The translations under genes were made by a program, and so were the position numbers. A stretch of DNA of 64,000 nt, from the NCBI RefSeq assembly GCF_010119205.1, contig NZ_WRXM01000001.1, forward strand, positions 620,001 through 684,000. Direction: 5' to 3'. This document shows, one piece after another, positions 1,401-31,857 of this stretch (within the stretch, counting starts at the first letter, position 1; every line of letters begins with the position of its first letter). This stretch comes from Haloarcula limicola (GTDB lineage Archaea > Halobacteriota > Halobacteria > Halobacteriales > Haloarculaceae). Below the pieces are notes generated by a model. The model did not search any database and was not told where the DNA came from. It saw only the letters and a program-made list of their open reading frames with translations.

Positions 1401-1557
1401 TGCGGCGGCCGAGAGGGGCAAACGCGAAGCGTTTGCGAGCGCCGATGGACGGAGTCCATCGGAATTTGAACCCGATGGCGAGACTCGCTTCGCTCGTCTC
1501 GCGTGATTCAAATCCCCCTATACAGCAGTTGCTGCTCGCGGACTGCTCGCAGCAAAA
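1401..1557 (-). repeat. Palindromic unit trailing tRNA-Gly, with T-arm and acceptor copies
   Basis: Read in the tRNA direction (descending coordinates): a hairpin with TTGCTGC/GCAGCAA arms at 1529-1535 and 1549-1555, two bases after the tRNA end; an inverted T-loop-like box GGATTTGAATC at about 1505-1515; a hairpin GCGAGAC/GTCTCGC at 1478-1502; a direct T-arm copy CGGGTTCAAATTCC at about 1461-1474; a 9-bp hairpin at 1442-1462 (CCGATGGAC, loop gga); and an 8-bp hairpin at 1418-1436. At 1401-1410 there is a 10-base copy of the tRNA 3' end (TGCGGCGGCC on the plus strand). The same order of elements follows tRNA-Leu near 31.6 kb. Confidence 0.75.
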
Positions 1558-1628
1558 TGCGGCGGCCGGGATTTGAACCCGGGCCATGAGCTTGGAAGGC
1601 TCAGGTCCTACCACTAGACCACCGCCGC
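1558..1628 (-). tRNA. tRNA-Gly (anticodon UCC)
   Basis: A 71-base cloverleaf on the complement. The acceptor is GCGGCGG paired with CCGCCGC, with discriminator A. The D-arm contains TCTAGTGGTAGGA, the anticodon loop is CTTCCAA giving UCC, and the T-arm is CCGGGTTCAAATCCCGG. CCA is not encoded and there is no intron. A Trm9-like methyltransferase gene lies 124 bases upstream on the same strand. Yeast Trm9 modifies U34 of this very tRNA species. Confidence 0.97.
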
Positions 1629-1752
1629 GCGTTCGCTTTGCTCACGCGCGCCGAGGCTCGCAAATCCATAGGATTTGCTCACCACCGCCGCTCCTTTCGG
1701 TGCGGTGTCTTCCGACGCCGAGCGAACGTACTCGGTCATAGACGGAAGGTGA
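1629..1752 (-). promoter_or_regulatory. Spacer between methyltransferase and tRNA-Gly with small palindromes
   Basis: Contains the inverted repeat GCAAATCC/GGATTTGC around 1663-1681 and a GCGTGAGCAAAGCGAACGCG-type palindrome around 1627-1645 (reverse strand). The palindromes resemble in style those downstream of the tRNA. No clear TATA box is visible, so the tRNA may be read through from the methyltransferase gene; this is an inference. Confidence 0.35.
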
Positions 1753-31529: not shown

Positions 31530-31613
31530 GCGCGGGTTGCCGAGCCAGGAAAAGGCGTAGCGCTTAGGACGCTATCCCGTAGGGGTCCGCCGGTTCAAAT
31601 CCGGTCCCGCGCA
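31530..31613 (+). tRNA. tRNA-Leu (anticodon UAG)
   Basis: 84-base class II tRNA. Acceptor GCGCGGG paired with CCCGCGC, discriminator A, D-arm with GAGCCAGG, anticodon loop CTTAGGA giving UAG, an extended variable arm (ATCCCGTAGGGGT) and T-arm GCCGGTTCAAATCCGG. CCA is not encoded and there is no intron. It is followed immediately by the palindromic units described separately. Confidence 0.97.
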
Positions 31614-31734
31614 TTTTGTGGCGAACGATTCGTGAGCCACAAATTCGTGTGAGGATTTGAATCCTGCAAGGAACGCGCAGCGAACGACGTGAGCGAGCAT
31701 TTCTTGCTCCGGTTCAAATCCGGTCCCGCGCATT
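31614..31734 (+). repeat. Trailing unit 1: hairpin, inverted T-loop, palindrome, tRNA-Leu 3' copy
   Basis: Starts with hairpin TTTGTGGC/GCCACAAA (loop GAACGATTCGTGA). Then AGGATTTGAATCCTGCAAG, a GC palindrome containing GCGAACGACGTGAGCGAG, and CTTGCTCCGGTTCAAATCC. The last 26 bases (31709-31734) are identical to the end of tRNA-Leu plus the two following bases (31589-31614). GATTTGAA...TGCAAG and CTTGC...GGTTCAAATC are mutually inverted, so the second half can fold into one large hairpin. Confidence 0.85.
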
Positions 31735-31857
31735 GCTGCTGCGAGCAACACCGCGAGCAGCAGCAATCGTGACGAACGGATTCTGAACCCCGCAAGTCGC
31801 AGCGGCCGAAGGGAGTGAGGCCGACCGTCTTGCTCCGGTCCAAATCGTCCCTGCACA
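31735..31857 (+). repeat. Trailing unit 2: diverged tandem copy of unit 1
   Basis: Begins with hairpin TTGCTGCTGC/GCAGCAGCAA whose loop GAGCAACACCGCGA resembles the loop after tRNA-Gly. It continues with GGATTCTGAACCCCGCAAG, a GGCC palindrome (GGCCGAAGGGAGTGAGGCC) and CTTGCTCCGGTCCAAATCG at about 31829-31847, a decayed copy of the T-arm sequence. Same element order and nearly the same length as unit 1, so it is a tandem duplicate that has drifted. Confidence 0.75.

Follow-up and report, generated by a model that had tools for sequence, protein, structure and literature searches.

Hairpin-bearing units with copies of the tRNA 3′ end lie behind tRNA genes in Haloarcula limicola and other haloarchaea

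Two tandem repeat units follow the tRNA-Leu(TAG) gene of Haloarcula limicola in the window, by which we mean the whole stretch of 64,000 nucleotides that was analysed, and a further unit with its parts in the same order lies behind the tRNA-Gly(TCC) gene (Table 1). Each unit is about 105-125 bp long and is built in the order h1 - I - h2 - D, where h1 and h2 are hairpins and I and D are, respectively, inverted and direct copies of the tRNA T-arm and 3′ end. An earlier note, made from the sequence alone, had described this order as hairpin, inverted T-loop box, GC palindrome and direct box, which is true of both tRNA-Leu units. It had also reported a 26-nt stretch that recurs identically; the repeat (CCGGTTCAAATCCGGTCCCGCGCATT) is indeed without mismatch, but its first copy had been placed at 31589-31614, one base off from its actual position at 31590-31615, with the second copy at 31709-31734. 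The decayed third copy that the note suspected exists as well and closes unit 2. Finally, the note had found no integrase or transposase at the locus, and a Pfam scan of the eight neighbouring ORFs bears this out: no integrase or transposase domain is among their matches (Nop, fibrillarin, GCS2, periplasmic binding protein, CobB/CobQ and DacZ), and two of the eight are without a match.

Table 1. Features of the tRNA-Gly(TCC) and tRNA-Leu(TAG) loci, in positions of the window.
Feature	Position	Strand	Sequence or remark	Evidence
tRNA-Gly(TCC) unit	1451-1557	-	order as in the tRNA-Leu units	model R1 match at 1451-1526 (-)
tRNA-Gly(TCC)	1558-1628	-		
tRNA-Leu(TAG)	31530-31613	+		ARAGORN and Rfam RF00005
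Last 22 nt of tRNA-Leu(TAG)	31592-31613	+	GGTTCAAATCCGGTCCCGCGCA; original of the D copies	
Unit 1, hairpin h1	31614-31643	+	TTTTGTGGCGAACGATTCGTGAGCCACAAA; GA/GA 2x2 mismatch within	RNA fold
Unit 1, inverted T-loop box I	31653-31663	+	GGATTTGAATC	fold pairing with D; model R1
Unit 1, hairpin module h2	31664-31710	+	CTGCAAGGAACGCGCAGCGAACGACGTGAGCGAGCATTTCTTGCTCC	compensatory changes in alignment A1
Unit 1, direct copy D of tRNA 3′ end	31711-31732	+	22/22 identical	
Unit 2, hairpin h1	31733-31766	+	TTGCTGCTGCGAGCAACACCGCGAGCAGCAGCAA	RNA fold z -3.8
Unit 2, inverted T-loop box	31778-31789	+	GGATTCTGAACC; one base inserted	model R1
Unit 2, hairpin module h2	31790-31836	+	CCGCAAGTCGCAGCGGCCGAAGGGAGTGAGGCCGACCGTCTTGCTCC	model R1, 60.3 bits
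Unit 2, terminal tRNA 3′-end copy	31837-31857	+	GGTCCAAATCGTCCCTGCACA; decayed	model R1

The fold predicted for unit 1 consists of h1 followed by a rod, in which I pairs with D, h2 lies inside and GA/GA 2x2 mismatches form internal loops. None of 200 dinucleotide shuffles was as stable, either for the whole unit (z -3.7) or for h1 alone (z -4.5). The I-h2-D hairpin of unit 2 does no better than its shuffles (RNA fold z -0.3), which fits the decay of that unit. A covariance model of the units, R1, matches unit 1 at 31642-31732 with 88.3 bits and unit 2 at 31768-31857 with the lower score entered in Table 1. In alignment A1, comprising 25 tRNA-Leu units with a 47-nt h2, the 22 proposed pairs form in 95.8% of cells (83.6% when shuffled, 22-48% when slid) and doubly changed cells stand at 71 versus 21, counts that lean towards structure since A1 was selected by equal length and the structure was read from A1 itself. 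Compensatory changes can also be seen directly, with C-G and G-C alternating at one base-stem pair and A-U, G-C and C-G at the next. GA/GA is the main 2x2 mismatch in both h1 and h2, and the pairs that flank it vary.

The R1 model was trained on 18 units from several tRNAs and genomes. Several of the training sequences come from the H. limicola genome itself and the model includes T-arm sequence; among the other genomes searched, none but G027, from another family, supplied most of the training units. In the H. limicola genome, where the best 150 first-look candidates were scored, R1 gave 22 matches at E<0.001, and the coordinates of all 22 place them at a tRNA 3′ end, on the strand of that tRNA. 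In G012 and G022, which are two further species of the genus, 42 of 45 matches have a same-strand tRNA upstream, and in three other genomes (G056, G086 and G064) 16 of 20 immediately follow a called tRNA. Of the four exceptions, three are located behind tRNA-end copies: L388 is an array of such copies, and L390 and L396 follow partial tRNA ends that are themselves preceded by coding sequence. The fourth is L377. R1 matches were found in 21 of the 22 sampled genomes of the host order, with 10-28 matches per genome in many of them, and in none of the 97 sampled genomes of the phylum outside that order. A simpler scan for two tRNA-Leu 3′ ends spaced 70-100 nt apart, run on a collection with one genome per species, returned 118 contigs, every one from Halobacteria (36 genera and 8 named families); the anchor of this pattern is itself of haloarchaeal type, and thus the scan alone is no proof of absence elsewhere. 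In the searches made, then, the family is confined to haloarchaea. The earlier note had proposed such a model search, and had allowed that the hits might be limited to one species with no conservation of structure. Instead, many haloarchaeal genera have matches, placed at tRNA 3′ ends, and the structure is conserved, as seen in A1.

The units do not belong to a known RNA family, a candidate rejected on the lack of a match: among the 4227 Rfam families searched, the only matches were to tRNA and a sub-threshold chance match to SAM-SAH, with none to rtT (RF00391). Literature searches by topic and by literal sequence, with most subscription journals outside their scope, returned no description of the units. 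It seems that a widespread repeat family accompanying haloarchaeal tRNAs went undescribed.

Copies of the tRNA 3′ end are common behind tRNA genes in these genomes, and in H. limicola about half of the tRNA genes are trailed by one to three of the hairpin units. Taking as a copy at least 14 of 18 nt matching within 400 nt downstream, 24 of the 43 tRNA genes of H. limicola are followed by a copy of their own 3′ end, against 4% for mismatched tRNA/trailer pairs. The corresponding counts are 13 of 30 tRNAs in G027 and 5 of 30 in G037, against 2-3% for mismatched pairs. The copy is local: the last 13 nt of D have an identity of 0.93 to the local tRNA and 0.50 to other tRNAs, and D starts at a fixed position in the T-stem. 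The I box resembles the local tRNA only slightly more than it does other tRNAs. None of the D copies carries an added CCA, and copying from mature tRNA by reverse transcription was dropped on this ground.

Several variants of this arrangement were noted in passing. Type B units, found behind Ala, Arg and Gly tRNAs (downstream of L009, L016 and L017; L320, L321 and L331 in G027; L345 and L367 in G037), have their hairpin on the opposite strand, an inverted copy of the acceptor, and a direct copy that begins in the T-loop (AATCCC...). Some tRNA genes (Gly, Trp) have similar hairpins on their upstream side, with duplicates of the tRNA 5′ end (e.g. GGCGGTGGT) around them, as at 1629-1690 (-) of the window and in the upstream flanks of L009 and L033; these are the mirror image of the 3′ units. 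In the trailers of one H. limicola tRNA-Leu (L041, G000:C1:157068-157151) and of a tRNA-Phe in G027 (L337), the copies start in the anticodon arm and hairpins are inserted just before the T-arm, giving defective tRNA copies split by hairpins. At L280 (G000:C1:242000-242300), a tRNA-like 3′ end with a unit is absent from the Rfam tRNA list, and is probably a tRNA missed by the Rfam model.

From the perspective of the hairpin modules, a different picture emerges. BLAST of the tRNA-Leu trailer against its own genome finds matches beside other tRNAs, and modules similar to the h2 of unit 2 are among those found behind other tRNAs of H. limicola. The h2 of unit 1 is 98% like that of a unit behind tRNA-Leu and 96% like that of a unit behind tRNA-Gly(GCC) of G012, and the h1 module of unit 2 recurs at the same tRNA-Leu in L054, L059 and L061. 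Of 59 units examined in three species of the genus, 51 have their nearest h2 relative behind another tRNA; across species, h2 identity is 0.68 at the same tRNA and 0.61 at different tRNAs. Since h2 is common to different tRNAs while D is local, h2 modules appear to pass between tRNA loci, although part of the likeness could have arisen by convergence, the hairpin being short and constrained. Orthologous tRNA-Leu loci hold from 0 to 3 units, the h1 and h2 modules and their order differ among them, and whole units are present in some related species and missing in others, whose arrays resemble deletion variants of one longer array. Neighbouring units in an array hold different h1 and h2 modules, and hence slippage or tandem duplication was rejected as the source of the arrays.

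We favor the interpretation that the units form a host-resident family of REP-like palindromic modules in haloarchaea, mobile and anchored at tRNA 3′ ends, and judge the chance that this is correct to be about even. A different account makes the units a passive product of replication, in which stalling at hairpins and template switching would copy the neighbouring gene end, direct and inverted, with tRNA ends favored because the T-arm is itself a dyad. The alternation D-h1-I-h2-D is the expectation for snap-back copying, L089 contains a perfect 22-nt inverted copy, chimeric h2 modules exist in which arms of two types are joined at the GCGAAGC tip, and rare similar duplications are found at the ends of protein genes (L283, L292). 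However, template switching would be expected to remove mismatches from the stems, and the GA/GA mismatches are still there; moreover, h1 and h2 are recurring modules common to several tRNAs rather than local copies, and the fixed start of D in the T-stem is not what passive copying would predict. On balance we consider the replication account decidedly unlikely.

The protein-gene cases deserve a description of their own. At L283 (G000:C1:588700-589300), the last 59 nt of a protein gene, stop codon included, are duplicated about 90 nt downstream, and between the copies lie a GA hairpin and a probable inverted box, which is the unit architecture at a non-tRNA gene. L281 and L292 resemble it. 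Judging by the duplications at these few protein-gene 3′ ends, the process seems not to be limited wholly to tRNAs. Elsewhere in the H. limicola genome (L274, L275, L284, L287, L288, L290 and L291), long arrays of CGAACGAAGTGAG-like GA hairpins directly follow stop codons, mostly in sense orientation and some with GTAG beside the stem.

The orientation of the hairpins and the character of their pairing bear on whether the units act as RNA. Downstream of tRNAs, GA hairpins number 43 sense to 4 antisense in H. limicola, 27 to 10 in G027 and 6 to 6 in G037, and few are found upstream; GA/GA hairpins in 400 kb of genome show no strong excess (255 versus about 166 expected). The sense strand gives the better fold in 111 of 139 units. 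A clear box is present in 138 tRNA-Leu units, and in 106 of these I supplies the Watson-Crick partner of T-loop base 57 of D. Wobble pairs outnumber A-C oppositions in I:D by 87 to 16, an excess that hints at selection at the RNA level and counts against the mobile-module interpretation, but h2 stems are without such bias (12 of each). The main rival is a structured trailer RNA with a cellular role, in which the transcript past the tRNA would fold into h1 and the I-h2-D rod and would end transcription, guide or protect 3′ processing, or yield a stable small RNA, with the I box serving to stop D from competing with the true T-arm. The sense bias downstream of tRNAs, the better sense-strand folds, the stability of unit 1, the compensatory changes in A1 and the tolerance of G-U in I:D are all consistent with such a role, and hairpins upstream of termination sites have been reported in Haloferax volcanii (PMC7237163). 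A role of this kind sits poorly with the facts that about half of the tRNAs are without a unit, that unit number differs between close relatives, and that the end units are decayed. It is likewise at odds with the type B units on the other strand, the lack of wobble bias in h2 stems, and the existence of chimeric h2 with mismatched arms. We regard the trailer RNA as an unlikely explanation. Mobile modules and a functional trailer RNA can nevertheless both hold, provided that modules, once captured, are retained for the structure they form as RNA.

The earlier note had offered three readings, namely a palindromic repeat that uses tRNA ends, stacked attachment-site scars and a processed trailer RNA. 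The first has been strengthened by the haloarchaeal range, the structure and the shared modules, whereas the second is now largely disfavored. It would have the units be scars of lost integrase elements once inserted in tRNA 3′ ends, and tRNA-targeting elements in other genomes bear on this. Archaeal integrases do target tRNA 3′ ends (PMC8371274), and a direct copy of the tRNA 3′ end at the far side, as seen in the exact 26-nt repeat, is what an attachment site would leave. Moreover, in G015 (C1:726800-734800, L085) a 5.7-kb element lies between two convergent tRNA-Leu genes and encodes an integrase-like ORF (364 aa) with strong similarity to the Phage_integrase protein of L082. The 22-24 nt of its distal core are those of D, so that integrases may have had a role, and no unit follows that core. 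This element is related to the 7-kb element of G024 (L082), which carries the Phage_integrase-domain protein and has a unit-like remnant hairpin past its distal end. In G001, two tRNA-Leu copies stand on either side of a 49-kb interval; units lie past the distal one, and the near end has none. In G001, L390 and L396, and probably in G024, an element thus separates the units from the tRNA (or from its end copy), which makes the units resident host sequence. Furthermore, the near ends of the elements lack h1, I and h2, and the size and structure of the units are constant. The units, at about 120 bp, contain no integrase, with none in the eight neighbouring ORFs either, and the unit interior was not found in intact mobile elements (phage, plasmid and viral contigs). 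Integrases use the same tRNA site, but the units do not look like integrase scars, an origin that we consider highly improbable.

An origin from viruses or plasmids was also rejected. Phage records gave no unit match, the sole plasmid match adjoins a tRNA-Gly and is therefore a tRNA-Gly trailer, and a 17-mer hairpin scan of viral contigs returned 67 scattered matches with no convincing unit among them; the 67 viral contigs gave no full, strong match.

How mobile modules might come to lie at tRNA 3′ ends can be sketched from these comparisons. New units would arrive as whole cassettes by a process that acts at, or copies, the T-arm and 3′ end, and arrival at this position would leave the tRNA gene intact. 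Loss of units would come about when 22-nt D copies recombine with each other. The folding strand, mostly the sense strand of the tRNA, would be recognized as a single-stranded hairpin, as mobilized DNA, as an RNA trailer, or as both. The most plausible agents are template switching that takes place at hairpins, or a putative recombinase, supplied in trans, whose target would be the T-arm dyad. Also against mobile modules are the difficulty that ordinary integrases would have with minicircles as small as about 120 bp, and the type B units, whose hairpin is on the opposite strand. A more elaborate version, very unlikely in our estimate, is a dedicated hairpin-cassette system, in which modules of 30-50 nt would move single-stranded between tRNA T-arms by means of a specific recombinase, giving arrays like those of a minimal integron that perhaps serve as landing pads or decoys and shape virus integration. 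In any case, this repeat family stands behind about half of the tRNA genes in its genome, extends across a class of archaea and copies the end of each host tRNA. It bears on tRNA annotation, on how att sites and genomic islands are interpreted, and on haloarchaeal models of termination and of 3′ processing of pre-tRNA. It also lets one test, in a natural setting, how small palindromes reach many different target genes and adapt to them.

Among known systems, several share individual traits with the units. The PATEs of Haloquadratum walsbyi are palindrome-associated elements related to IS605-type transposons, and like the units they are palindromic non-autonomous repeats in a haloarchaeon; a link to tRNAs was not seen in the description consulted (PMC3119063). 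Integron attC arrays offer an analogy, in that exchangeable segments lie between imperfect palindromes that could form single-stranded hairpins, but the units have no gene cassettes, no integron integrase was seen with them, and their boundaries are tRNA sequence. Elements that integrate into tRNA genes through tyrosine integrases, and the attR fragments they leave, share the direct 3′-end copy, the intact gene and, in G015, the 22-24-nt core; unlike them, the units are about 120 bp long, have no genes, contain regular internal hairpins, array different modules and lie outside integrated elements.

Nearest to the units are these integrated elements, the tyrT repeats of E. coli described below, and the REP/BIME sequences with their TnpA-REP (RAYT) transposases. 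The last resemble the units in being short, imperfect, non-coding palindromes with conserved mismatches, arranged in composite arrays and presumed to be non-autonomous. REPs are extragenic imperfect palindromes of 20-40 bp that occur in many copies, and the h1 and h2 hairpins are of this kind. In contrast to REPs, the units are bound to tRNA 3′ ends, carry copies of their target, and are without the GTAG/CGTC tag: at the base of the stem, GTAG occurs in 0 of 25 and CGTC in 1 of 25 tRNA trailers of H. limicola, and in 1 of 93 and 0 of 93 tRNA-Leu units, respectively. A parallel in the relation to a tRNA is found in the 178-bp tyrT repeats of E. coli (rtT RNA, Rfam RF00391), where tandem repeats behind a tRNA gene each contain a copy of about 19 bp of its 3′ end. 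Those repeats belong to one E. coli operon, whereas the haloarchaeal units accompany tens of tRNA genes per genome throughout a class, and add to the tRNA 3′-end copy both exchangeable hairpin modules and an inverted T-loop box.
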